DNA of 53,766 nucleotides from a virus: the IMG/VR virus record IMGVR_UViG_3300045125_000094, positions 1 through 53,766 of that record; one strand, given 5' to 3'. The translations under genes were made by a program, and so were the position numbers. Below are positions 817-53,766 of this stretch, in pieces; position 1 is the stretch's first letter, and every line of letters starts with the position of its first letter. Under the pieces are notes generated by a model. It made no database searches. It had not been told where the DNA came from and worked only from the letters and a program-made list of their open reading frames with translations.

Positions 817-2345
817 TTAAGCACTTAGCGGTCGAATATGTCGCGAAACCTGCGAACGGTCTACCGATATGTCATCTCCCGGCACCGCTCGCAATTCGTC
901 AGCAAGTCTGCCGTATAAAATGCGCGCTGCGTTCAAGTCCTGATCTTGTCGATGCCCATTCTCGCAAGTCAAAACAATGGCGGCTCCTGGTTCTACGTGA
1001 CCACCGCACACATGGCACTCCTGAGTCGAGTAACTGCCTGAGATTTTGGGAATGCGGTTAAGCATCTTTTCGCGGATATATCCTCGCAATATGGACAATC
1101 CGGCAAACTGGCGATACTTCTGCGCGTTTTCAATAGCATGACTGCCGCTTTCGTCTTCCGCCAGATTCTTCAATGAGAGATCGTCTTCCCATGCCAGCAC
1201 TGCGACTTGTCGCGACAAAAGCGCTGCAATGTTTCGATATATGTGATTACGAGTCGCAAAGATTCGCTGCTGCGCGCGTCGAATGCGTTTGGCAAGCTCA
1301 GCGTGACGCTCCGACCATGCGTCAAGTACCGGACAATCAACCCCGGCAGCTCGCAGCGCTCGATGAATGCGACGTAGTCCCCCGCCTCGCATTTTGACCA
1401 GACCGGACATTGAATTGCGTGCCTCTTCCGGCCATGCGGCGCGCGGTATTTCGCGAAGAGCCGCTTTACTATGCTTCCAGATGCGCATCCTGCACTGACT
1501 GCAACTCCCAGACGCCGCGAATATCTCGCACAACTTCCGTGTCCGAATATCGCTGAATTTGCTTGCGCTCCGATCTGTTGGCCAGATCAAACGGTAAAAA
1601 CAACTCCATGCGCTTTGCGCTCGGTATAAATCACACCAAGACGAAGTCCGTCTTCGCGTCGCCGCCAGCCGAGATCCATCGCTGCAATGGTATTGCCATG
1701 CATAACCTCTCGCGGCGGACGTTCCATCAGCATAACGATCTTCCATTGCCAGTTGCGAAATGCCGGCTCATAAGTGCCACAAAGCGAGTATCGTTTTAAA
1801 ATGCAATCTTCTTCTAATGGGCGATGCATCACCGTCTCAAAATGCACTCTTTCTGTATTAATTTTGAAGTATCCGCGCACTAAACCATTTTGACGACGCA
1901 GATGAAACGGTTTGAGGTTGCTGTCCCTGAATATCCATGACACGGGAGCTCCCTTTTTCGTGTCCGTTCTGTTCTCAATTTGAATGCGACGCAGGCCATG
2001 CTTAACCGATGGCGCACCTGCGCGCCTGCCAGCCCATGCCTGCTGACTGCGTGTGAAGTTGTCCCAAATCTGCCATTTAGCCCAACATGGTATTTGCAAT
2101 GCGGTACCCTGATCGCGCACATAAGCTTTAGCCCGTTGCTCAAACTGCTTGTAGGCTTCTTTCTTTTGATCCTTGCTGGCTTCAGCCAGCGACTCGACCA
2201 TTGTTTGATGTTCGACAGCCAGCCAGTTCCACAGCGTCTGCTGATTCTTGGCGGTAGTAAACACGATCTCCGGCATCTTCTCGGTCAGAATGTCGTATGC
2301 GTACACATAAGGTGTATTTTCGGGTCGTTTTTTCTGTCGTGCCAT
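817..2345 (-). CDS. cas12: Compact Cas12-like (type V) RuvC effector, phage-encoded
   Basis: This is probably an RNA-guided DNA-binding or DNA-cutting effector of about 510 residues. ATG at 2345 follows AAAGGAG. Three RuvC motifs are visible: AAMDLGWRRR (catalytic Asp, about residue 235), VLAWEDDLSL (Glu) and DQDLNAARIL (Asp, near the C-terminus). A zinc-finger-like segment (CHVCGG, then CENGH) lies before the last motif. The MHRPLEEDCILKR segment and small size resemble type V-U1/Cas12m proteins, but the subtype is not settled; reported Cas12m proteins bind without cutting, while here all three acidic residues are present. The reading frame shifts twice: near 1590-1605, where LPFDLANRSERKQIQRYSD continues in a third frame, and near 1465-1475. 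Like breaks elsewhere, these look like assembly errors. The gene lies 20 bp after a nuclease gene and 21 bp before the array; no cas1 or cas2 is seen. Confidence 0.85.
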
Positions 2346-2365
2346 ATGCCCTTTCTCCTTTTTTC

Positions 2366-2695
2366 CTATTCCCTGCCCCACGCCCGCAAGACCCACGTGA
2401 GCGCCGCTCCGCTGTTGACCGTCTCCGCTGTCACGATGATCAGCTTCCAGCCGAGGATCGACGCTTCCGTGAACTTTTCGTAATCGCGCGTGATGCCTGC
2501 TATTGATGAATGCGACGCCTGCCGATAGAAGACGCCGCCCTGATACTCGATCGCGATCTGCTGCTCTGCCCATGCCGCGTCGAATCGCCAGCGCCGGGTC
2601 GGATGGAACGAGACCTCCCGCTCCGGCGCTGGCAACCCCACGAGATGCACCTGCTGCAATAACTGTTCGAGGTAGCTGTTTTGACGTTTCTTCAT
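2366..2695 (-). CDS. Small PD-(D/E)XK / VSR-like endonuclease
   Basis: A 109-residue protein with the pattern WRFDAAWAEQQIAIEYQGG, then H, then RDYEKFTEASILGWK. This is the layout of small phage nucleases of the VSR/DUF559-like PD-(D/E)XK fold: acidic residues in FD and in IAIEYQGG, and a later D-Y-E-K helix. Such proteins usually act on branched or mismatched DNA during phage replication. It ends 20 bp before the cas12-like start, so the two are probably co-transcribed. A role in the CRISPR system (Cas4-like) cannot be excluded, but the Cas4 cysteine cluster is absent. Confidence 0.7.
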   Translation of the reverse strand: MKKRQNSYLEQLLQQVHLVGLPAPEREVSFHPTRRWRFDAAWAEQQIAIEYQGGVFYRQASHSSIAGITRDYEKFTEASILGWKLIIVTAETVNSGAALTWVLRAWGRE

Positions 2696-4978: not shown

Positions 4979-5248
4979 TTAAAAACGGCTATTTTCGGCC
5001 GCACCACACGGTGCCGCCTCTGCCGCCTCTGCCGCGTCAGGGGCAATTTCACCATCAAATGGTGAGTTTGTGGTGAGTGATTGTGAGTCGCGGCGCGGTC
5101 GCCTTCCGCCGGCAGGCATTAGCGGAAGACCGGCCGCTCGCCGAAACCACTGAGAGATTGTCAGTCCGGCGGCGCGCGCTTTGGCCTCGACCTCGGCGCG
5201 CTCCGCCTCTGACTCGGCGTGGACTGAGTAGGCGGTGAGTCGTCTCAC
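4979..5248 (-). CDS. MobC/ribbon-helix-helix-like small DNA-binding protein
   Basis: 89 residues. The N-terminal half (AERAEVEAKARAAGLTISQWFRRAAGLP) has the pattern of MobC- and CopG-type ribbon-helix-helix proteins, which bind short direct repeats. The C-terminal half is Ala/Glu-rich and low complexity. The gene sits beside the attP core and contains part of the right-arm repeats, so a directionality (excisionase) role or autoregulation is plausible but inferred from position only. Confidence 0.55.
   Translation of the reverse strand: MRRLTAYSVHAESEAERAEVEAKARAAGLTISQWFRRAAGLPLMPAGGRRPRRDSQSLTTNSPFDGEIAPDAAEAAEAAPCGAAENSRF
5062..5089. repeat. GTGAGT repeats, right arm of attP
   Basis: GTGAGTT at 5062, GTGAGTG at 5073 and GTGAGTC at 5083 are spaced 10-11 bp apart; single related copies sit at 4947 (GTGAGCG) and 5235 (GTGAGTC). 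They lie within the gene at 4979-5248 and mirror the repeats left of the core. Confidence 0.55.
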
Positions 5249-5744: not shown

Positions 5745-6853
5745 TTATTGTCGGCTTTGATGCAGTCGGGTGAGCGCGTCGGCGGCTTCTCTGGCGAGGC
5801 GCTCATCGACGTTGGTGTAGATGTCGTGCACCTCGGCCGTGGTATGCCCTGCCAGCTTCATGGCGAAGTGCTGCGGCAGGCCGGCCTCCATCAGGTCCGT
5901 CGCGTACCCGTGGCGCAGATCGTTCAGTCTGAGCCCTTCGACCTCGGCGAGGCGGCAGGCAGTGTTCCATGCGCGTTTGACGCTGGCTACTGGCGGCAGC
6001 AGCGGCGTCTTCGGGCCCGGCGCTGATCCCTGGTGCCACTCGCGCAAGGCGTCTCGCAGGCGCGCCGTCAGTCCCAGTAGTCGCGGCCGGCGCTTCAATC
6101 GATTGCCGGTCGGCACTTGCAGGATCTCCCGCTGCCAGTCGACGCAATCCCAGGTCAGAGATCGCAGTGCCGACATTCGGAGTCCGGTGTCTCGTGTCGC
6201 CAGAATATAGACGCGCAGGTGTCGCCGCTTCGGGTCGTCGCACGCCGCCAGAATGCGCCGCTCCTCCTCGGGCGACGGTATCCGGTCACGTCGCGTCTCG
6301 TTTGACTTGACGATCAGCGGGGGCCCGGCCGCGAATGGATTGCGCAACAGCCAGCCGTGTCGCATCGCGTACAGCAGGACGCCGCGCAGCAGCTCAAGCT
6401 CACGGTGAATAGTTGCTGTTTTGCGCTGCTTCTGATGACCGGACGATCGGAGACTTTCTTTCCGGCATTGGTCATGCGCGCTTTTCTGGCTTCGTGAGCG
6501 ATCCACGCGCGATTCGGCACCTGCTTTCGATGCTGCGCGAACATGACCAGATCCGCATAGCTGATCGATCGAGCCCGGCGACCCCGAAAGTAGTCCAGCG
6601 GCTCGAACAGATAATCAGCCATATCCGGCTTCGCTCGCCGATATTCCACCACCATCTGGTCGAATGTCATTCGCTCAGAGTCGTAAGCGTCGACGCCAAA
6701 TTGCGCCAGCTCCGCCTTCATCTCGGCCAGCACCGACACGGCCTCGCGCGCGTTGGCGACCTGACGCTCCTTCGCTTTCCACTTTCCGTCAGCGAAGTAG
6801 CGCAAACGCACGTAGAGCTTTCCGTCACGTGTGACGGTATAAGGTTGCGCCAT
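5745..6853 (-). CDS. int: Tyrosine recombinase integrase
   Basis: Site-specific integrase of about 368 residues. The N-terminus (KLYVRLRYFADGKWKAKERQ) is an AP2-like arm-binding domain; a core-binding domain follows; the catalytic domain has Arg in DTGLRMSALRSL, LNDLRHGYAT (Arg and His; Asn replaces the first His of the HxLR box), LAGHTT (His) and the Tyr nucleophile in HDIYTNV. One frame change near 6410-6430 splits it, probably an assembly error. It reads toward the tRNA-Pro attP core about 0.8 kb away, so insertion into the host tRNA-Pro gene is the expected outcome. Confidence 0.92.
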
Positions 6854-6865
6854 GTTGTCACCTCG

Positions 6866-7084
6866 CTATCCGGCTTTTCGTTTGCGCGATACCGATTTGG
6901 CTGCCTGACTGAGCTTTTCTTCGTTTAGTTCAATATCGGCTACCAGGTCATAATATCTGACCAAAATTGCCTCGATTTGACGCACGGCGCTTCGCCGACA
7001 TCTCGCGGCGTCCACGTCCAGCGCCTCCCATACGAACTGCGGCAATCTAATAGATCTCGGCTGAACGCTCCAGATCCTCTTCAT
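6866..7084 (-). CDS. Ribbon-helix-helix regulator
   Basis: 72 residues from ATG at 7084. RSIRLPQFVWEALDVDAARC, then RRSAVRQIEAILVRYY, matches the Arc/CopG fold: a beta strand with alternating polar residues, two helices, and Ser at the second helix. It lies 12 bp upstream of int on the same strand, divergent from another RHH gene at 7319 across a repeat-rich control region. It may regulate that region. A longer start at 7174 is possible but would place the coding start inside leader sequence. Confidence 0.65.
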   Translation of the reverse strand: MKRIWSVQPRSIRLPQFVWEALDVDAARCRRSAVRQIEAILVRYYDLVADIELNEEKLSQAAKSVSRKRKAG

Positions 7085-7184
7085 CCCTTTCCATCTTGTT
7101 CGACTCCTGAATGGGAGAACTTTCACGATAATCCCTCCGTTAGTGTGCCATCTCCGTAAAATCTTCTCCCGCACAATTGATTAA

Positions 7185-7318
7185 TCTGAGTGTAGGAAAT
7201 TCAAAACGGTATTGCAAAGAGTATTTTTGGTATATTTTTGCACCACTGGTGCATTTTTTTTGCTTTTGCACCAAAACGGTATTGACGAGTTTGATACCAT
7301 TTTGATACCATTCTTTTC
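7185..7318. promoter_or_regulatory. Divergent early promoters with shared operators
   Basis: The leftward promoter TTGCAA-17 bp-TACACT covers roughly 7190-7217. The rightward promoter starts with TTGACG (7282) and has a weak -10 in the following TGATACCA copies. Repeated words: the 13-mer CAAAACGGTATTG at 7202 and 7272, one per promoter; TTGATACCA at 7291 and 7302, exactly 11 bp apart; palindrome TGCACCA-C-TGGTGCA at 7239-7253 with an extra TGCACCA half at 7267. Phased short repeats are typical RHH operators. This is probably the main lysogeny switch. Confidence 0.7.
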
Positions 7319-7528
7319 GTGATGAGACGGAAGACTTTCACAATCAGGCTTTCAGAAAATTTGATTCGCGACCTCGACCGCGAGGCGAAAAGCACTTTCG
7401 CGCGCGGCAACAGCCGGACGCTGATGCTTCAGCGGATTCTGACGGAAAGGTATGAGGCGAATCAGCAGGTGTCTTCGGGTGAGGAGGCCCGGAGAAAGCG
7501 GAGGGTCGGTATTCCCGACCCTCGATAA
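7319..7528 (+). CDS. Ribbon-helix-helix repressor-like protein
   Basis: 69 residues (GTG at 7319 or ATG at 7322). KTFTIRLSENLIRDLDREAK, then ARGNSRTLMLQRILTERYEA, is a CopG/Arc-type RHH domain, followed by a basic tail. It is the first gene of the rightward operon, directly downstream of the tandem TTGATACCA repeats, and may bind them. The 3' end (7501-7525) forms a 9-bp stem-loop (GAGGGTCGG, loop, CCGACCCTC) without a T tract. Confidence 0.65.
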   Translation: MMRRKTFTIRLSENLIRDLDREAKSTFARGNSRTLMLQRILTERYEANQQVSSGEEARRKRRVGIPDPR

Positions 7529-7624
7529 AACCGCGATGTGCGGTCAACCGGGGAGCCCGGCGGGGAGTCCATCTCCGCCGGCCCTGTTGAACACACGATG
7601 GCTACACGAAGGATGATACCACAT

Positions 7625-7966
7625 ATGTACCAGATTAGTGACATCAGATTCGACGCCGGGTCGCTCAGGGCCGAGAAGGCTCGCCGCTATGCTACTGTCG
7701 AATCACTTGCCGCTCACCTCAAGCACTCGCCAACCACGATCATCAACGCGCTGCACGGCCGCGATAATGTCCGGCTCGGCACGCTGCGCAGGATCGCCGC
7801 GCGCCTCGGCCTTCGCGTTGAGGTCACGTTTAGCCCGATCGGCGCTGGCTGTGCGCGCTGCGACGGCACCGGCATTGTCAGCGACGGTTACGCTGATCAC
7901 TCGTTTCCGACAGAGTGCGTCTGCGTTGATGGATCTCCCGTCACTGAAGAGGAGATACCGCTGTGA
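7625..7966 (+). CDS. Cro/XRE-like HTH protein with cysteine motif
   Basis: About 113 residues from ATG at 7625 (AAGG 12 bp upstream); ATG 7598 and GTG 7538 are in-frame alternatives without better ribosome sites. A helix-turn-helix (VESLAAHLKHSPTTIINAL, then VRLGTLRRIAARLGLRVEV) resembles lambda-type repressors. It is followed by CARCDGTG, one half of a DnaJ-like zinc motif, and a later C-x-C. A GC-rich 10-bp stem-loop (about 7558-7582) lies before it. Probably a second switch regulator. Confidence 0.65.
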   Translation: MYQISDIRFDAGSLRAEKARRYATVESLAAHLKHSPTTIINALHGRDNVRLGTLRRIAARLGLRVEVTFSPIGAGCARCDGTGIVSDGYADHSFPTECVCVDGSPVTEEEIPL

Positions 7967-9997: not shown

Positions 9998-10077
9998 AGT
10001 CATTCATTGGTGAGACCCTGCTGCTGTGGCTCGGCGTCATTCTCGTGTGTGCATGGGCGATCTGGTACATGGGATAA
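9994..10077 (+). CDS. Single-span membrane peptide, 27 aa
   Basis: ATG at 9994 overlaps the previous stop (ATGA) and its TAA overlaps the helicase ATG (TAATG). The peptide is almost entirely one transmembrane helix (LLLWLGVILVCAWAIWYMG). The two tight overlaps support a real, translationally coupled gene. Function unknown. Confidence 0.55.
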   Translation: MKSFIGETLLLWLGVILVCAWAIWYMG

Positions 10078-11689
10078 TGCAACTGCGACCCTATCAACAA
10101 GAGGCGTTGACAGCGATCGACGAGGCACTGGCTCGTGGCGTTCGCCGTCAACTGCTCGCGCTCCCGACCGGCGGCGGCAAGACTGTTGTCTTCTCCGAGC
10201 TTGTCCGTCGTCGGCCCGGACGCGCACTCATACTCGCTCACCGCGATCGCCTTATTCAGCAGGCGCACGACAAGCTCGCCACCGTCATCGAGCCGGCGAG
10301 ACTTGGTATCGTTAAAGCTGATCAGAATCACTTTGCAGCGCAAACGATTGTCGCCTCTGTGCAGACTCTTGCGCGGCCGCGACGTCGCCAGTCGCTGCCA
10401 AAATTTGACACTATTATTATCGACGAGGCGCACAGATCCGCTGCTCGTGTCTATCGCGAGATCATTGACGAACTGGCCGGCCCCGACTGCCTGCTGCTCG
10501 GTGTTACCGCTACACCTGAGCGCTCCGACGGCGTCGGCCTCGACACGGTCTACGACGAGATCGTTTACCAGGTTGGCATCCTCGATCTGATTGAGGCCGG
10601 CTACCTGATCCCGCTGCGCGGTCGCAAGGTTGTTATCAACGCCGACTTCTCGCACGTCCATACTTGCCGCAATACTGACGGAGTCAGCGATTACAAAACG
10701 GACGAGATCGAGCAGCTGATGCAGGCTGCCAACTGGTGCGAACATATCGGCAAGGCATGGCTCGAAGACGCCAGAGATCGACGCACCATCGCCTTTGTTC
10801 CTCGCGTCAGAATGGCCTATCAGCTCGCCGAGTGGCTGACCGGGAACGGCATTGCCGCGGCGGCGCTTGACGGCTCCAGTCATATCAGCGACCAGCGGCG
10901 CGTTGTTCGCGACTTTGAGGCTGGCCGGATTCAGTTTCTCGCCAACTGCGACCTGTTTGTCGAGGGCGCGGATATCCCCTCGATTAACTGCGTTGTCTTC
11001 GCTCGGCCAACCAAGTCGCGGATCGTCTATAGTCAGGCCATTGGCCGCGGCACCCGGCTGTCACCTGAGACCGGCAAGACCGACTGTCTTGTCCTTGATG
11101 TTGCCGGCGCGACAAACCGATTCGATCTGTGTCACCTCGGCACGCTGGCCGGCGTCAACCGAGTGCGCGACGACGAGACGCTGGCGGAGGCCGTGGAGCG
11201 CGAGGAGAAGGAGGCTCAAGCTAAAGCCGAGGCCGTACCTCCGCCAGCGATGCACGGAGACCTTCGGCTTGTTGATGCGGATCTCTTCGTCGATACCCGC
11301 CACCGCAGCCGGCACAGCAGTTCAAGTGGAACATTGACAAGATCACCCGTGAGGCTGAAATGCGCGCCGGTTCGCATCTGTATCGCATCTGCCGGCCTGA
11401 TCCGAACGGTGACTACATCTACTCGTATCAGGATGTTCGCACCTCTGAGACCGCAACGTACTACCGGGCGGACACTTACCTGCAAGCGCTACAGGAATGC
11501 AACCAGCACGCCAACACCGTGACGTTTGGCGGACCGGAAGCAGCATGGCGCAAAAAGCCTGCCAGTGAGAAGCAGGCGCAAATACTCCGCAAATTTCGCA
11601 TAGCAAACGCTGAATCGTTGACCAGCGGGGAGGCGGCCGATCTGATCACCGCCTGCTTCGACCGATCACGAAGGCGGGGTCGAAGGTGA
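10077..11689 (+). CDS. SF2 DEAH-box helicase
   Basis: About 537 residues. Motifs in order: RPYQQEAL (Q-type motif), PTGGGKT (Walker A, about residue 32), IIIDEAH (Walker B), TATPERSDG (motif III), VEGADIPSINCV (motif V) and QAIGRGTR (motif VI). This is the RecQ/RecG/UvsW-like superfamily 2 layout, probably unwinding or remodelling phage DNA during replication or recombination. A frame change near 11310-11330 joins QFKWNIDKITREAEMRAG to a C-terminal domain ending at 11689. ATG at 10077 overlaps the previous stop. Confidence 0.88.
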
Positions 11690-11695
11690 GCACAT

Positions 11696-13996
11696 ATGAC
11701 ACTACAGGACTTCCTTGGCAGATTCGAGACTCACAAGCGCTCGGGCGGCGGCTACCAGGTGCGCTGCCCCGCTCACGAGGACAACAAAGCTTCGCTCAAC
11801 ATCAAACAAGGCGACAAGGGTATTCTTGTCAAGTGTCACGCAAATTGTTCAACCGATCGCGTGCTCGAAGTCATGGGGCTCACGCTGCGCGATCTCTTCG
11901 ATACTCCGTCAGATCCGCAGTGGCGAGCGCGTCCGGCATCTCAGCCAGCTCGTTCTCAACAGTCGCGTTCGCAGCCAGCCGCTCAGCCAGCGGCACGTCA
12001 GCAGGATCGCCGCGACCCTGTCGCTGTCTACAAGTACCGCGATGAGGCCGGCGACCTGCTTTTTGAGGTGCTGCGATTCGAGCCGAAAGACTTTCGTCAG
12101 CGCCGGCCTGACGGCAGGGGCGGGTATATCTGGAAGCTCGACGACACTCGCCGCGTTCTGTACCGACTACCGGAGCTGCTCAATAGTCACCCGGACTCTA
12201 CCGTCTGGATTGTCGAGGGCGAGAAGGATGTGGACGCGCTGCGCGGCCTTGGCTTCACCGCCACCTGCTCTGTCGGCGGGGCTGGCAAATGGAGATCCGA
12301 TGACTACAATCAGCACCTCGCCGACCGCGATGTGATCGTCATTCCGGACAACGATCAGCCCGGCATCGATCACGCTCACGCCATCGAGCTGGCTCTGCTT
12401 GGCGTCGCTCGCTCGGTCAGGATCCTTACGCTGCCCGGTCTGCCGCCCAAAGGTGACGTCTTCGACTGGCTGGCGATCGACGGCAACGACGCGGATCGTC
12501 TCGTCGCTCTCGCCGACCAGCTCGACGAGCAGCCGCCTGTCAGCGCGCAGGTGTCGCCTGTCGCTGCCGTCTTCGAGGTTTCCGAGACTGGCCTGACACC
12601 GGACAAATGGCGGCGCACTCACGAAGGACTCGCGCTGGAGTTGCTCGCTCGCGCCAATGGCGATATTTGCTATATCTCGGATCTGACCGCGGATCTCAAG
12701 GCGGATACTTTCGCCACCTGGTCCGGCTCGCGCTGGTTCTTCCGCAATCCGGCTCTCGCCGCTCTCACCGAACGCCAGCGCCTGATGACGGCTGAGTTTC
12801 GCGCCTGGGTGCAGTCTTTTCTCGATCTGGTGGAGAATGACGTCGAGTCGCTCAGCAAGTTTGAGTCGGCGGCGCTCCGCTTCTCAAAGGAGATGGAATC
12901 GAGCGCCTTCAAAAAGGCGTGGCGCGAGGAGATCAAGGCCTACGGGCCCATTCACGCCAAAATCGGCGATTTTGATCAGGATCACTATGTCCTCAATTGC
13001 CAGAATGGCACGCTTGACCTCAGGAGGGGCATCCTGCGCGATTTTGACCGCCGTGACTACCTTACCCGCCAGCTCGACTTTGCGTTCGATCCTGAGGCAT
13101 CCTGCCCGCAATGGCTGCGCTTTCTTGATACAGTCTTCGCCGGCAATCGCGAACTCATCGACTACATGCAGCGCGCCATCGGCTACACGCTGACCGGTGA
13201 CACCTCCGAACAGTGCCTCTTCCTCTGTCACGGGCCGGGCGCGAACGGGAAGTCGGTAATGCTCGAAGTCATCACGGCGCTGCTCGGCGAGTTCGCCCAG
13301 GCGTCGCCAATGACCACTTTTACCGCCAAACCGAACGACAACGGCGCGTCAAACGATCTTGCCCGAATGCGCGGCGCTCGCCTGATCACCGCCTCCGAAA
13401 CCAACGAAGGAATTCGTCTCAACGAGGCGCTTGTCAAAAAGATCACCGGGCAGGACACCGTCACCGCTCGATTCCTCTACAGCGAATACTTCGACTTCCG
13501 TCCGTCGTTCAAGCTGTGGATCGCCATGAACCACCTGCCGACCATTCGCGGCACGGATGACGGGATCTGGCGTCGCCTTCGCCTGATCCCGTTCAGCGTA
13601 ATCATCCCCGAAGAGCAGCGCGACAAACACCTGACCACGAAACTCAAGTCAGAGCTGCCCGGGATTCTTGCATGGGCGCTCGCCGGCTGTCTCGACTGGC
13701 AGCGCAACGGTATGCGCACGCCAGAAGCCGTCAATGCCGCAACTCAGGGTTATCGCTCCGAGCAGGACGTCCTCGGCGCGTTTATCCAGGAGCGCTGCAT
13801 CGTCGGCAACGCATACGACGCACCAACCAACGATCTCTACCGTGCCTATTCTGAATGGGCGCAGCAGTCAGGCGAATATGTGATCTCGAAGAACGCTTTT
13901 GGTCGTCGAATGACCGATCGCGGCTTCAAGCTCGAACATGCTCGCAGCGGTGATCGTCGAATCGGCGTCGGTCTGCTCGCGGATCAGTCGAAATAG
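11696..13996 (+). CDS. P4-type primase-helicase
   Basis: 766 residues in one intact frame. N-terminal CHC2-like zinc segment (CPAHEDNKASL and CHANC), TOPRIM-like primase core (WIVEGEKDVDALRGLG, VIPDNDQPGIDHA), a D5-type middle domain (QNGTLDLRRGILRDF), and an SF3 helicase (CHGPGANGKSVMLEVITALL Walker A; MRGARLITASETNEG Walker B region; WIAMNHLPTIRGTDDGIWRR sensor/Arg). This is the architecture of phage/plasmid replication initiators such as P4 alpha. Iterons begin just downstream, fitting an initiator that binds its own origin. Confidence 0.93.
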   Translation: MTLQDFLGRFETHKRSGGGYQVRCPAHEDNKASLNIKQGDKGILVKCHANCSTDRVLEVMGLTLRDLFDTPSDPQWRARPASQPARSQQSRSQPAAQPAARQQDRRDPVAVYKYRDEAGDLLFEVLRFEPKDFRQRRPDGRGGYIWKLDDTRRVLYRLPELLNSHPDSTVWIVEGEKDVDALRGLGFTATCSVGGAGKWRSDDYNQHLADRDVIVIPDNDQPGIDHAHAIELALLGVARSVRILTLPGLPPKGDVFDWLAIDGNDADRLVALADQLDEQPPVSAQVSPVAAVFEVSETGLTPDKWRRTHEGLALELLARANGDICYISDLTADLKADTFATWSGSRWFFRNPALAALTERQRLMTAEFRAWVQSFLDLVENDVESLSKFESAALRFSKEMESSAFKKAWREEIKAYGPIHAKIGDFDQDHYVLNCQNGTLDLRRGILRDFDRRDYLTRQLDFAFDPEASCPQWLRFLDTVFAGNRELIDYMQRAIGYTLTGDTSEQCLFLCHGPGANGKSVMLEVITALLGEFAQASPMTTFTAKPNDNGASNDLARMRGARLITASETNEGIRLNEALVKKITGQDTVTARFLYSEYFDFRPSFKLWIAMNHLPTIRGTDDGIWRRLRLIPFSVIIPEEQRDKHLTTKLKSELPGILAWALAGCLDWQRNGMRTPEAVNAATQGYRSEQDVLGAFIQERCIVGNAYDAPTNDLYRAYSEWAQQSGEYVISKNAFGRRMTDRGFKLEHARSGDRRIGVGLLADQSK

Positions 13997-14008
13997 GCGA
14001 TTGAGGCC

Positions 14009-14446
14009 GTGAAGTAATTTTTGAGAATTTTGGCTTAATTCGGAACACTTCAGCGTGGCGTCCAAACGGCGTCACGCTTTTTGTATATATATGCAAATAA
14101 ATTACTTAGCAGCCATCAAACCGCACAATAAGCCCCGATTAAGCCATTTTACGTGGCGCAAAACGCGCGGGTTTTTGGCGCAATGGTGAAGTAATTGTGA
14201 AGTAATCGTGAAGTAATTTTAGGTAATACTTCACGCTTAACTCTTTGTTTTTAACTATTTACCTATTATGTGAAGTATGTGAAGTAATTTTCTATACACG
14301 TATATAAGAAAAAAGGGGAAAGAGGGGGTAATTATTCCCATGCGTATCTACAATGCAACAAATACTTCACATTCATCACGCCTACGGCTAAAGCATTGCT
14401 ACGTATGAGTTTAAGCCCGTGATGTAATTGTGAAGCAATACTTCAC
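14009..14446. repeat. Iteron-rich AT-rich region, probable replication origin
   Basis: GTGAAGTAAT occurs at 14009, 14187, 14198, 14209 and 14280, with variants at 14271 (GTGAAGTAT), 14420 (GTGATGTAAT) and 14430 (GTGAAGCAAT). The inverse ATACTTCAC occurs near 14227, 14363 and 14438. Copies at 14187-14218 are exactly 11 bp apart. The region is AT-rich, non-coding and directly after the primase-helicase gene, as P4 ori/crr iterons relate to the alpha protein. Confidence 0.8.
14052..14083 (+). terminator. Rho-independent terminator after primase gene
   Basis: An 11-bp stem with two G-U pairs (AGCGTGGCGTC, loop CAAAC, GGCGTCACGCT) is followed by a T run. It lies 55 bp after the primase-helicase stop and would separate the replication operon from the origin. 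Confidence 0.8.
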
Positions 14447-14464
14447 ACAATCACCAAATCGCTT

Positions 14465-14704
14465 ATGAAAGACCTGACCGCGAACGCAAAACTCAATCCG
14501 TGGGCCGAACTCGACGCCAGAGGTCGTCGCCTGGACGACCTTTCCGCCCTGATCCGTCTTTGGTCTGCCGCCAAAGACGACCTCGACGAAGCTCTCGCGA
14601 ACCCACTCAACACCGAAGCCGATATGCAGCGTCATCGTCGTCGCTTCGCCGAAGCCTGTCACCAGCTGCAACAGACTACGCGCACGCTGCTGACGCAGGA
14701 ATGA
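14465..14704 (+). CDS. Hypothetical protein
   Basis: 79 residues, helical and charged (ELDARGRRLDDLSALIRLWS, DDLDEALANPLNTEADMQRH). No clear ribosome site at the ATG, 19 bp after the last iteron. Its stop overlaps a possible 24-residue frame. Function unknown. Confidence 0.5.
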   Translation: MKDLTANAKLNPWAELDARGRRLDDLSALIRLWSAAKDDLDEALANPLNTEADMQRHRRRFAEACHQLQQTTRTLLTQE

Positions 14705-19758: not shown

Positions 19759-19925
19759 ATGTATACCTATTTGACGTTTCTCACCCTCAGCGCAACAGCG
19801 AGACCGTCTGTCTGTACGGGGCGACCACCGGACAGCGCTACGTGTTTACGACCTCACAACCTACTCTTCGAGTCGACAGCCGAGACGCTGCGGCGATGAT
19901 TCGCACCGGACTGGTGCAGGCCTAA
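19759..19925 (+). CDS. Small structural-module protein, 55 aa
   Basis: ATG at 19759 after AAGGAG. With one frame change near 19775-19785 the protein reads on as SHPQRNSETVCLYGATTGQR, YVFTTSQPTLRVDSRDAAAM, IRTGLVQA. Similar small basic proteins lie in head-tail modules, but I cannot name it. Confidence 0.45.
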
Positions 19926-50713: not shown

Positions 50714-50923
50714 ATGGGCATCATAAACACTCAGGCAGCGGCTAAGCGACTTGGAATCAGCGCGATAACACTGCGGCTCTATATCCGTCAGGGTCGCATC
50801 AAGGCGGTCAGGCTCGGCCGTGACTACGTCATCGAGGAGGCGGATCTGGCTCCGCTGCTCGTTCGACCAAGGGCCGGGCGTCCTCGCAAAGGGAAGGGTA
50901 GCGACGAGACGCCCGGAGGCTGA
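50714..50923 (+). CDS. Excisionase-family HTH (MerR-like) protein
   Basis: 69 residues from ATG at 50714 after GGAGG. INTQAAAKRLGISAITLRLY, IRQGRIKAVRLGRDYVIEEA, DLAPLL is the MerR/excisionase-type winged HTH, with a basic tail (RPRAGRPRKGKG). It is the only rightward gene in this region and ends one base before the clamp stop. It could be the regulator of the adjoining divergent promoters or an excisionase. Confidence 0.78.
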   Translation: MGIINTQAAAKRLGISAITLRLYIRQGRIKAVRLGRDYVIEEADLAPLLVRPRAGRPRKGKGSDETPGG

Positions 50924-52067
50924 TCATGCTCGCATCGGCATGACGATGTATGTGGCGCTGACAGCGCTGGCCGCGATTGGCGCGAAGGCGTGAAATCGCA
51001 GCATATCTCCTTCTGCCTCGCAGGCCAAGAAGCGCGTCGTCCTCGATCAGCGCCAGCCCGTCCAGCAGATACTTTGCGTTGACGCCGACAGGTCATCTCG
51101 ATGTCGCTGTCGACGTCGATGATGCTCGTGCGGCGTCGCCGCTCTCGGTTGACGCCGAGACGCTGATCCGATTCGGTTGCAGCGCCAGCCGTAGTCCGTG
51201 AGACAGATGGTCCGCCATCAGCGCCACCCGCTGAGCCGCTGTCGCCAGCTGGCGCGCCGGGAATCGCAGCAGCCGCGTCGGCTCCTGGTTGAGACAGTCG
51301 CGTCGACGTTCGGGAACTGTCCTGGCGAGCAGTCGTGTCACCAGCACGCGCGAGGTCTTGTTTGTTCTGACGACCAGCCGGCCATCCCGTGTCAGCTGCT
51401 CGATTCTCACCAGATCTGTCGCGGTATCGATCAGGCGCGCAATCTCCGCCAATGCTTTGCGCGGCACCAGCACATCCATTGCGATATCGGGGGCAATCGC
51501 CGGCTGGTCTGGCGTGACAACGGCCTGTGACATTCGATGACCGTCGGTGGCGACCAGTCGCAGGCGTCCGTTCTTCGCTTCGAGCTTCGCGCCGTTGAGC
51601 GTGTAGCGAGACTCTTCCTCGGCTGATGGCGCACTGGACGTGACTGATCATCTCGCGCAGGATCTGCCCGGGCACCTCGACCACGGTCGACTCTGTCTTC
51701 AGATTCGGCATCTCCGGAAACGAATCAGGGTCGGTCGTCGCCAGCACGAATCGCGATTTCTGACAGGTAATCGTGGCGCGCTGCTCCGTGACTTCGATGG
51801 TGATCTCGGCCTCCGGCAGCGCCTTCACGATCTCCAGCAGTCGCTTGACAGGCAGACAGGCGGCGCCTGGTGCCACCACCTCGACTGTCAGCGGCGTCGA
51901 GAGCCAAATATCGAGATCTGTTGCGCGCAGCGTCACGATCTGAGGGCAGGGCACCGCGTCAAGGTGCACGTTGGCCAGTATGGGCAGCGATGGCTTTCTT
52001 CTCGGCCACCGAAGCCAGCGCGTGTCAGCTCGCGCAATAGTCCGGCACGGATCGCGATAATCTTCAT
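50924..52067 (-). CDS. dnaN: DNA polymerase III beta-like sliding clamp
   Basis: About 380 residues from ATG at 52067 (after GAAAGGAC), with frame changes near 52000, 51620, 51095 and 50990. Clamp signatures: LPILANVHLDAV, ATDLDIWLS, CLPVKRLLEIVKALPEAEIT, KSRFVLATTDPDSFPEMP, LRLVATDGHRMS, VPRKALAEIARLI, and the C-terminal ATYIVMPMR typical of DnaN. The ring tethers replicative polymerase. Phage-encoded DnaN is uncommon without a polymerase; host polymerase III may be recruited to it. Confidence 0.88.
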
Positions 52068-52078
52068 TTGCGTCCTTT

Positions 52079-52302
52079 CTATCTGAATGTTGGATTGAAA
52101 TTTGATTGCTGACAAACTCACCGCGCTCGTCGCAGATTCGCCACTGGTTGATGTTGCGCAGGCGTCGTACTCTCAGCGACTGTTCGTTGATTGTAACCTC
52201 AGCGTACGTAACACCATCAATCTCGACCTGATTGTGGACAGGCCGCTCAATGATTGTGCGACGATCAGTCGTCAGATCGATCTGAATTGATTGTTTTGGC
52301 AT
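52079..52302 (-). CDS. Small hypothetical protein, one frame break
   Basis: ATG at 52302. PKQSIQIDLTTDRRTIIERP, QVEIDGVTYAEVTINEQSLR, VRRLRNINQWRICDERGEF; a frame change near 52110 would end it at TAG 52079, just before the clamp's ribosome site. About 74 residues, beta-rich. Function unknown. Confidence 0.5.
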
Positions 52303-52303
52303 C

Positions 52304-53001
52304 TCAGATCCTCGCCGTGACGATTTCTGACTGGTTCTGGTACTTGCCATCCCTGTCAGCGTAGGACGTAATGCAGGGCACCTGTGACGCAAAGAACTGT
52401 ACCTGCGCGATTCCTTCGCCGGCGTACACGCGCATGGGCAGCTCAGTCGCGTTCTTCAGCTCAATCACCAGCCGTCCGCGCCAGCCAGCTTCGAGCGGCG
52501 TCGTGTTGACGATCAGGCCGCACCGGGCATACGTCGATTTGCCGACGCAGACTCCGCAGACATTCACGGGGCAGATCGAACGTCTCGACCGTCAGGCCGA
52601 GAGCGTAGGCGTTCGGGTCAAGGGTGTAATAGGCGGAGCCGTTGGCAGCTCCGGGTCACGTCGAGATGGTGCAGCAGAGCTGACGTCGAACTCGTGCGGG
52701 TCGATCGTCGCGGTCATACTGCCAGACCGGCACTGAGACCATGACCGTCAAAATCACTTGCCCATTTGTGCTCCTGCTGAACAAAGACCCGCAGCCCCTC
52801 GTCGCTGAGCCGCACGTCGTAGCCGTGACTGCTGAGGCCGTAGCTGATCACCGACCGATGGCGGAATGGTGCGTCAGCCGCTGCGAGCTGGCGAATCTGC
52901 CGTGCGACAAACGGCTCGATAATCGGGTGCTGTTCGCGCAGCGAGCAGAGCTGATCGTCGGACAGTATCCCGACAGGGAGGGGTCGTTCATATTGCGGCA
53001 C
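52304..53001 (-). CDS. dcd: dCTP deaminase / dUTPase-family enzyme
   Basis: About 232 residues with frame changes between 52565 and 52720. [30 protein letters not shown], then [71 protein letters not shown] and DRDGKYQNQ are the ordered motifs of dCTP deaminase, converting dCTP to dUTP (or directly to dUMP). Start GTG at 53001 is tentative. It works with tmk in thymidylate supply. Confidence 0.9.
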
Positions 53002-53010
53002 CTTTCTGGT

Positions 53011-53100
53011 TAAATTGCACCAATTTGGTATATCTGGTGCGTCTGATAATAGGTATTATGTTGTTTTGGTATCAATTATACCACTTTGGTATCACTGGTC
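53011..53100 (-). promoter_or_regulatory. Second operator cluster and leftward promoter
   Basis: Contains the same words as 7185-7318: TGGTATCA at 53067 and 53087 (20 bp apart, the reverse complement of TGATACCA), GCACCA at 53017 and TGGTGC at 53035 flanking TTTGGTATA. On the minus strand a consensus -10, TATAAT, lies between two TGATACCA copies, with GCTGAC 17 bp upstream. It overlaps the 3' end of tmk and would drive dcd and later genes. Confidence 0.7.
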
Positions 53101-53675
53101 AGCAGGTGCAGCACGGTCGTCATGATGGTCGCGTGAACCTCTTCGACCGTGCCGTTACCGTCGGCCATCGCCATCGGCTCCGCGGTGTGACCGCTGACGA
53201 AGATCTCCCAGTAGCCCTGATGCACCCGACGCAGGTAATCGAGCTGGTCGTCGCTGACGGTCTCGCCGCGCTGCTCCAGCCGCTGCTTCGCCACCAGCGG
53301 GTCAGCGTACAGCCACACGTGCAGGGAGACCGGCAGATCCGATGTCGCGATCCGATTCAGCCGTCGCACGATTGACAGCTCGACGCCGCCGGCGTAGCCC
53401 TGATAGGCCATTGTTGACAGCGTGTAGCGATCGCACAGCACGATCTTTCCGGCATCGAGGGCCGGCCGAATGACCTTGTTTGTGTGCTCGTAGCGGTTGA
53501 CGGCGATCTTGCACGCGACCACGCCCGGCGGATCGTCCGGGGCGATCTCCATCTCCCAGGGCTCTGCCGTCGTCACTACACGATGACCGGCAGCCGTCAG
53601 CGCCTCCGCAGCCATTCGCAGCTGCGTCGACTTGCCGACGCCGTCGATTCCTTCAAATACGATCAGTTTACTCAA
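53076..53675 (-). CDS. tmk: Thymidylate kinase
   Basis: 199 residues from TTG at 53675 after GAAAGGATCG. FEGIDGVGKSTQ is the P-loop, TTAEPWEM the dTMP-side segment, CDRYTLSTMAYQG the DRY motif, RLEQRGE the LID-type segment. Phosphorylates dTMP to dTDP. It follows the leader-distal end of the CRISPR array on the same strand, so array transcription could read into it. Confidence 0.93.
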   Translation of the reverse strand: MSKLIVFEGIDGVGKSTQLRMAAEALTAAGHRVVTTAEPWEMEIAPDDPPGVVACKIAVNRYEHTNKVIRPALDAGKIVLCDRYTLSTMAYQGYAGGVELSIVRRLNRIATSDLPVSLHVWLYADPLVAKQRLEQRGETVSDDQLDYLRRVHQGYWEIFVSGHTAEPMAMADGNGTVEEVHATIMTTVLHLLTSDTKVV

Positions 53676-53691
53676 GCGATCCTTTCTGGTG

Positions 53692-53720
53692 ATTGAACAT
53701 CAATTGAACACCAATTGAAC
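53692..53720. repeat. Three ATTGAAC repeats, 11-bp phased
   Basis: ATTGAAC starts at 53692, 53703 and 53714, each flanked by CA/CC so that the core CAATTG appears twice. They lie between the tmk ribosome site and the terminal CRISPR repeat and overlap it by 4 bp. Exact 11-bp phasing suggests a protein-binding site on one DNA face. Confidence 0.6.
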
Positions 53721-53766
53721 TTAAGGCATCTCCTTTGTTCATCTATTGCTACTCCGACTTGTTTCA
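53717..53766 (-). CRISPR. Degenerate terminal repeat and start of wrapped spacer
   Basis: Bases 53717-53752 match the CRISPR repeat except in the stem (GAACTTAAGG for GTTTCAAAGG, and TTTGTTC for TTTGAAC). The GAAC and GTTC changes can still pair with each other. A degenerate repeat marks the leader-distal end of an array. Bases 53753-53766 plus 1-24 make a 38-bp spacer if the molecule is circular, which fits the 33-39 bp of the other spacers. The last six bases happen to equal the first six of a repeat; a repeat starting there would leave only an 8-bp spacer. Confidence 0.85.

Follow-up and report, generated by a model that had tools for sequence, protein, structure and literature searches.

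Do the short repeated words that lie between two divergent genes at 7.2 kb of this virus, and that recur at a promoter region near 53.0 kb, serve as operators of a common regulator? The window, that is, the whole stretch of DNA analysed here, is 53,766 bp in length and is the virus record in full. An earlier note on this DNA had claimed a phage regulon that controls both a rightward replication operon and a leftward dNTP/clamp operon, and perhaps also the CRISPR locus between them. Our main reading is that the 7.2-kb region would be a divergent switch of two paralogous ribbon-helix-helix (RHH) proteins with TGGTRY dyads as operators, and that a second operator would be located at the dCTP-deaminase/beta-clamp promoter at 53.0 kb; on the sequence evidence set out below, we give this a probability of about two in three. 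The sites probably mark a genuine phage regulon, of a kind that is known in general terms: they recur at both loci, and in a distant relative the same signal lies between the corresponding divergent repressor genes. The claim of a regulon is upheld as far as shared operator-like sites, their promoter-like positions and a switch kept in relatives are concerned; that the RHH proteins bind these sites, that they repress from them and which of the two acts where is what we infer.

Half-sites and dyads at two loci

The strings listed in the earlier note are present. At 7.2 kb, CAAAACGGTATTG occurs at 7202 and 7272 and TGATACCA at 7292 and 7303, 11 bp apart, and the palindrome GCACCACTGGTGC (7240–7252) has a counterpart, GCACCA-N12-TGGTGC, at 53017–53040. 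At 53.0 kb, TGGTATCA occurs at 53067 and 53087, 20 bp apart, and there is a TATAAT box on the minus strand (53080–53075). What that description overlooks is the underlying unit, which is a 15-bp dyad, RYACCA-N3-YGGTRY, formed by paired half-sites. The half-site TGGTRY (TGGTAT or TGGTGC, in both orientations) is dense at 7.20–7.31 kb and at 53.02–53.09 kb, far above chance. The dyad is exact at 7268, 53017 and 53078 and has one mismatch at 7294, and all four dyads lie on or adjoin promoter-like hexamers.

Both regions have a GC content of around 34% and each contains six TGGTRY half-sites, a number that was reached in 0 of 5,000 local dinucleotide shuffles of either region. Over the whole window, the dyad with up to one mismatch gives 12 strand-wise hits compared with 3.15 expected. 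TGATACCA is present in six copies against 0.47 expected (six were reached in 0 of 100 shuffles), five of which are at 7.29–7.61 or 53.07–53.09 kb. There are 17 copies of TGGTAT/ATACCA in 53.8 kb; the densest 140-bp segments are at 53.03 kb (4 copies) and 7.23 kb (3 copies), and the remaining segments listed hold 1 each. For TGGTGC/GCACCA (38 copies), the 7.24-kb segment is highest with 3, and the 53.02-kb segment, with 2, merely ties with two other places. The whole-genome scan that had been proposed as a check therefore recovers the clusters at 7.2 and 53.0 kb together with stray copies, namely the sixth TGATACCA (26612) and a third CAAAACGGTATTG (17641), both intragenic, and an exact 15-bp dyad at 19903.

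To avoid a motif picked by eye, we compared all 110-bp segments (step of 10 bp) outside 7.05–7.40 kb with 7185–7318 by the number of shared 6-, 7- and 8-mers. The segment at 53.01 kb ranks first for all three lengths (26, 19 and 11, with runners-up at 15, 15 and 7), and the values for 53010–53100 (25, 19 and 11) were each reached in 0 of 5,000 shuffles.

Genes and promoters of the 7.2-kb region

Two RHH proteins flank the 7.2-kb region, as had been claimed, and they are paralogues. RHH-A (86 amino acids, 6866–7126, minus strand) is directly upstream of the integrase; its start was moved from 7174 to 7126 (GTG), guided by an MxVLPF start common to its relatives. RHH-B, an Arc/Mnt-like protein of 68–69 amino acids (7319–7528, plus strand, with an alternative ATG at 7322), heads the rightward operon. 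The tyrosine integrase (5745–6853, minus strand) is split into two frames (5745–6506 and 6314–6853); its C-terminal part matches Phage_integrase (E = 3.6e-20) and its N-terminal part has a weak arm-binding match (Arm-DNA-bind_4, E = 0.012). The rightward operon includes a helicase (10026–11522, plus strand) and a D5-type primase (11696–13996, plus strand). No antirepressor family or domain was found among the scanned neighbour proteins on either side of the switch, and the 7.2-kb DNA had no match in annotated phages. Behind the primase gene, an AT-rich gap (14000–14480) contains many copies of GTGAAGTAAT and inverse copies in an iteron-like arrangement, possibly a replication origin or another operator.

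The leftmost sites of the region (7202–7233, plus strand) are the half-sites CGGTAT, within CAAAACGGTATTG at 7202–7214, and TGGTAT at 7228. The palindrome GCACCACTGGTGC is followed by eight T, and a rightward terminator would also fit. Two candidate operator dyads accompany a promoter-like pair for RHH-B, TTGACG-18-TACCAT (7282–7311, plus strand): GCACCAAAACGGTAT (7268–7282), an exact RYACCANNNYGGTRY, abuts the −35 hexamer, and ATACCATTTTGATAC (7294–7308), which has one mismatch and is built from the TGATACCA pair, overlaps the −10 hexamer. The promoter-like pair is weak on its own, because one was found compared with 0.5 expected; it stops 7 bp before the GTG at 7319, and the RHH-B transcript is possibly leaderless.

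The 53.0-kb promoters and the leftward genes

The two candidate operator dyads at 53.0 kb are exact on both strands: GCACCAATTTGGTAT (53017–53031) has an extra TGGTGC half-site at 53035, and ATACCACTTTGGTAT (53078–53092) has the flanking half-site TGGTATCA at 53067. Two promoter-like pairs, CTGACC-16-TATAAT and TTGATA-18-TATTAT, are present on the minus strand (53046–53102; two found compared with 0.4 expected). One dyad is in the spacer and −10 hexamer of the former, and the other is downstream of the latter. The first gene after these promoters encodes a dCTP deaminase (52304–53001, minus strand) in two frames, of which the C-terminal part (52304–52567) has a family match (E = 2.9e-25) and the N-terminal part (52714–53001) has no family hit and is assigned from its position. 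The frame-broken gene for the DNA polymerase III beta-clamp (50824–52392, minus strand) matches dnaN (E = 2.7e-24), with a C-terminal piece at 51093–51533. The dTMP kinase gene, tmk (53076–53675, minus strand, E = 2e-31), overlaps the candidate operators with its 3′ end; it is upstream of the 53.0-kb promoters and hence not under their control. Of the two operons in the original claim, the rightward replication operon stands as described, and the leftward one is narrowed to dCTP deaminase and clamp. Between the start of the dTMP kinase gene and the CRISPR array, 53688–53716 holds three direct repeats with an 11-bp period (TTGAACATCAA, TTGAACACCAA).

The record has no exact terminal repeat. A CRISPR array of 12 repeats exits at the right end and resumes at the left end (53717–53766 and 1–795), and an ordinary 38-nt spacer spans the join; the record is thus most likely circular, which would place the 53.0-kb region about 8 kb from the 7.2-kb region. 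Several conserved genes (those for the integrase, clamp, dCTP deaminase and Cas12m-like effector) have frame breaks, which suggests indel errors in the contig and calls for caution over single-base details of the operators.

Beside the array is the gene for the Cas12m-like effector (817–2573, minus strand), which is in two frames; both pieces match the solved Cas12m structure 23vw collinearly (E = 1.3e-7 and 0.0097). The extension of the regulon to this locus found no support: no operator cluster was detected at the CRISPR/Cas12m locus, where TGGTAT at 1688 and 2088 are isolated copies within the effector gene. In the accessible portion of one source, Cas12m is reported to bind rather than cut DNA (PMC12607003). 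The end repeat of the array (53717–53752) is degenerate, with seven differences, and the changes in its stem look compensatory by eye, GAAC..GTTC replacing GTTT..GAAC. The repeat had no match in bacterial genomes and the array no near match in annotated phages.

RHH family membership and candidate binders

A profile of RHH-B and two relatives has the Mnt repressor as its best match in the PDB (E = 0.0082). The RHH-B of the window matches a PHROG transcriptional repressor (E = 0.0083) and, searched alone, had no Pfam Arc hit. Its counterpart in a related record, L016, matches Pfam Arc (E = 0.0037, 17.5 bits compared with a cut-off of 20.4), two Arc-like PHROG families (E = 2e-4 and 4e-4) and PHROG 2685, labelled partition protein (E = 4.4e-8). 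The RHH family matches are weak and below Pfam cut-offs. AlphaFold models are of low confidence (means of 66.6 and 58.2); that of RHH-B has, at this confidence, the expected extended N terminus and two helices, and a Foldseek search with it returned one meaningless hit. RHH-B is likely, at this level of similarity no more than that, to be a member of the Arc/Mnt family. The candidate operator binders are RHH-A, RHH-B or both; the HTH regulator discussed below and a NikA-like (MobC-type RHH) protein of the leftward operon (4979–5248, minus strand, E = 1.3e-5, just under the Pfam cut-off) are also candidates.

The gene pair and its candidate operator in relatives

The relatives of the primase of the window are distant (the best is 53% over 169 residues and most are below 47%). 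Two of the records that contain them, L016 and L017, encode an RHH-A that is 47% and 43% identical, respectively, to that of the window. Single-sequence searches of viral contigs found no close relative of RHH-A or RHH-B; a three-sequence RHH-A profile recovered four viral records, L016 and L017 again plus L202 and L205, and none was confirmed among genome contigs. With tblastn (E ≤ 0.01), the L017 RHH-A and the L016 RHH-B had no match in phages and the RHH-A of the window had none in plasmids. L202 is nearly identical to L016 in the switch region, so the divergent RHH-A/RHH-B pair is present in four other viral records that represent three distinct switch regions. In all four, a small, divergent RHH-like gene occupies the place of RHH-B, and an integrase is downstream of RHH-A in all five records, including the window.

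The RHH-B profile gives exactly two hits in each of the five records, RHH-B and the divergent RHH-A. E values for RHH-B range from 3e-25 to 7e-40 for the members of the profile and a near-copy, with 1.9e-20 for the RHH-B of L205, which is outside the profile; those for RHH-A range from 3e-6 to 1e-3 (3.2e-6 in the window). As the profile recovers RHH-A in every record, RHH-A and RHH-B are paralogues. The same profile gave no hit at E ≤ 1e-4 in 33 further records that contain a primase, selected from 80 loci.

The consensus RYACCA-N3-TGGTRY, derived from the window, is matched exactly once in each of L016, L202 and L203 (the L016 record again), inside the gap between RHH-A and RHH-B, and no exact match in 78 control loci (1.08 Mb). 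With up to two mismatches in 20 kb, L202 and L203 have matches at three places, all in this gap, and L016 has two additional matches outside it. Throughout the complete L016 and L202 records (34.3 and 34.9 kb), the gap is the only place with a dyad at up to one mismatch; a reversed control pattern gives 4 and 6 strand-wise hits in these records, so what is informative is where the dyad lies and not how many hits there are. The L016/L202 dyad fills the spacer of the RHH-B promoter TTGACT-16-CATAAT. The finding of such sites in the homologous gap of relatives, as the dyad here and as a different half-site in the two records that follow, is the strongest evidence we have for a function of the sites and for a connection with the RHH pair.

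No dyad is present in L017 and L205. CRGTGY, a related but different half-site, has its densest cluster in their RHH-A/RHH-B gap, with 5 copies in L017 and 3 in L205 (the next-densest clusters hold 2 and 1); the copies are arranged as direct repeats that lie between promoter hexamers or adjoin them. No second dyad cluster was found in the records of the relatives and no second CRGTGY cluster in their 19–21-kb loci, and the extension to 53.0 kb is therefore drawn from the window only. Upstream of RHH-A, L016 (2440–2490), L017 (2790–2840) and L205 (9850–9900) share a near-identical non-coding block, CCCGCGTT..CCCACGACGCC, that is absent from the window and is perhaps an RHH-A promoter or an attachment site. 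By eye, one position in the strand of RHH-A is R or H in proteins that occur with TGGTRY dyads and I in those with CRGTGY, which, with three lineages, is a lead only.

Pairs of TGATACCA in other phages

The arrangement TGATACCA-N3-TGATACCA is common in IMG/VR (at least 119 stretches). Among the 119 pairs listed, 13 are 167–320 bp from a tyrosine-recombinase motif, and 5.0% of random positions are within 2 kb of one; these recombinase-adjacent pairs span four lineages. Pfam was applied to 39 records, and in four of them (L164, L170, L171 and L175) the pair lies 38–59 bp past the integrase domain. Such integrase-adjacent pairs of other phages look like candidate attP arm-type sites. The pair was also tried as a marker of RHH operators and rejected: of 529 open reading frames near the pairs, 1 is RHH-like by a regular expression, compared with 2.9 expected. 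By itself, the pair is not diagnostic of an RHH operator, because elsewhere it occurs beside integrases or in unrelated intergenic regions. L143 (3679–3870) and L184 (3158–3349) each have eight copies of TGATACCA/TGGTATCA in one intergenic region; that of L143 adjoins a leftward primase/helicase-like gene and has no evident RHH protein among its neighbours. Literature searches returned nothing informative on the word TGGTATCA and nothing specific on arm-type sites.

Alternative explanations

The sites could instead be operators of the Cro/CI-type HTH protein (7625–7966, plus strand; Pfam HTH_31, E = 0.0009, below the cut-off; PHROG transcriptional regulator, E = 1.6e-4) in a lambda-like switch, with the RHH proteins having their role elsewhere. 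The HTH gene is next after RHH-B, a copy of TGATACCA at 7614 is immediately ahead of its start, and dyads of about 15 bp, such as those found here, are usual for Cro/CI-type repressors. However, in the examined parts of five related loci where the RHH pair is present, no counterpart of the HTH protein was found (E up to 0.01), and the exact dyad is retained in the L016/L202 lineage, which makes this reading rather unlikely in our view. A second alternative, in which the integrase uses the TGATACCA direct repeats as its arm-type sites in attP, would agree with the recombinase-adjacent and integrase-adjacent pairs described above, which include pairs with the same 3-bp spacer, and with the weak arm-binding match of the integrase in the window. 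No attachment core was identified in the window. Moreover, RHH-A intervenes between the 7.2-kb pair and the integrase, whose start is about 440 bp downstream of the pair, a distance of about 6.4 kb on the circle separates the 53.0-kb copies from the integrase, and the GCACCA dyads and the L016 match are left unexplained; we consider attP sites very unlikely, and for the window we take the dyads and the 53.0-kb copies as pointing to operators.

We give hardly any credence to the reading that an RHH partition protein uses the sites as its centromere. RHH proteins that bind centromeres do so through repeated half-sites, and it is a family labelled partition protein (PHROG 2685) that the L016 RHH-B matches; however, a ParA-type ATPase (PF13614) was found in none of the five records (the control was positive in 14 of 14 genomes), and all five have an integrase. 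Chance combined with promoter bias has an equally slight likelihood: AT-rich promoters with an extended −10 (TGnTATAAT) naturally contain TGGTAT, one such extended −10, TGGTATAAT, is present at 53.08 kb on the minus strand, and both regions share the low GC content given above. Against this, local shuffles that preserve composition never attain the observed counts, neither the GCACCA arms nor TGGTATCA is a promoter element, and the L016/L202 lineage has an independent dyad at the homologous place.

Proposed switch

Under the divergent RHH switch that we favour, the 7.2-kb region would be the central switch of a temperate phage, with RHH-A transcribed leftward with the integrase and RHH-B transcribed rightward at the head of the replication operon. 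One or both proteins would most likely occupy the half-sites as dimers of dimers. The RHH-B promoter would thereby be covered, and early rightward transcription would be repressed together with the proteins' own genes. In the phage of the window, RHH protein on the 53.0-kb dyads would also block the leftward dCTP-deaminase/beta-clamp promoters; with the same candidate operators at both places, lysogeny would silence nucleotide supply and replication together. RHH-A, produced together with the integrase, would favour lysogeny, and RHH-B, as the first product of the early promoter, would limit that promoter by feedback.

A broader proposal, which we put forward only tentatively and think more doubtful than not, is that the RHH pair replaces the CI/Cro immunity switch, that its specificity drifts between lineages (TGGTRY dyads as opposed to CRGTGY direct repeats) and that the regulon reaches the dNTP/clamp genes, in the same leftward block as the Cas12m-like CRISPR locus. 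If the switch is as we propose, a poorly known group of temperate phages would have an operator code that is open to test, and P22 immI would gain a counterpart in which two RHH paralogues face each other with shared operators between them. One could then ask how paralogous repressors split their sites and how operator and repressor co-diverge. A further prediction is that nucleotide supply and the phage clamp are repressed together in lysogeny.

Comparison with known systems

As judged from titles and the opening of abstracts, our literature search returned no paper on a divergent RHH prophage immunity switch, a result that leaves absence from print unproven. In lambda, the CI/Cro operator region is divergent and located between integration and replication functions. 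The candidate switch of the window has the same setting; in contrast, its HTH protein is not kept in relatives, and the conserved regulators are RHH proteins.

The Arc and Mnt genes of P22 are divergent, and Arc limits an early promoter by feedback. The window resembles P22 immI in having two paralogous small RHH proteins, putative repressors, with shared candidate operators; in P22, arc is under autogenous control. Among solved sequences, Mnt is the nearest to RHH-B, and the candidate operators of the window lie, at the level of sequence, between divergent genes and over a promoter. According to the portion of the source available, the P22 immunity I region holds mnt, arc, sar and ant, and mnt and arc control the antirepressor gene (PMC2629481). 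The P22 pair flanks an antirepressor gene, whereas that of the window flanks an integrase/replication switch with no antirepressor among the scanned neighbours, and its candidate operators recur at a nucleotide-metabolism promoter.

AmrZ of Pseudomonas aeruginosa is described, in the accessible part of its report, as an RHH protein of the Arc/Mnt type; it represses its own promoter by way of two short half-sites that an A/T-rich linker separates (PMC3325190). Autorepression through half-sites by an Arc/Mnt-like protein is what we would predict here; AmrZ, however, is a cellular global regulator, and its half-sites are GGC compared with TGGTRY in the window. Reg of plasmid p576 (pLS20 family) is an RHH repressor whose operators, in the available text, flank several promoters of the element, including its own (PMC8708921). 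Both would be RHH repressors of a mobile element with operators at several of its promoters; Reg is a single repressor on a conjugative plasmid, whereas the window encodes a divergent pair in a phage.
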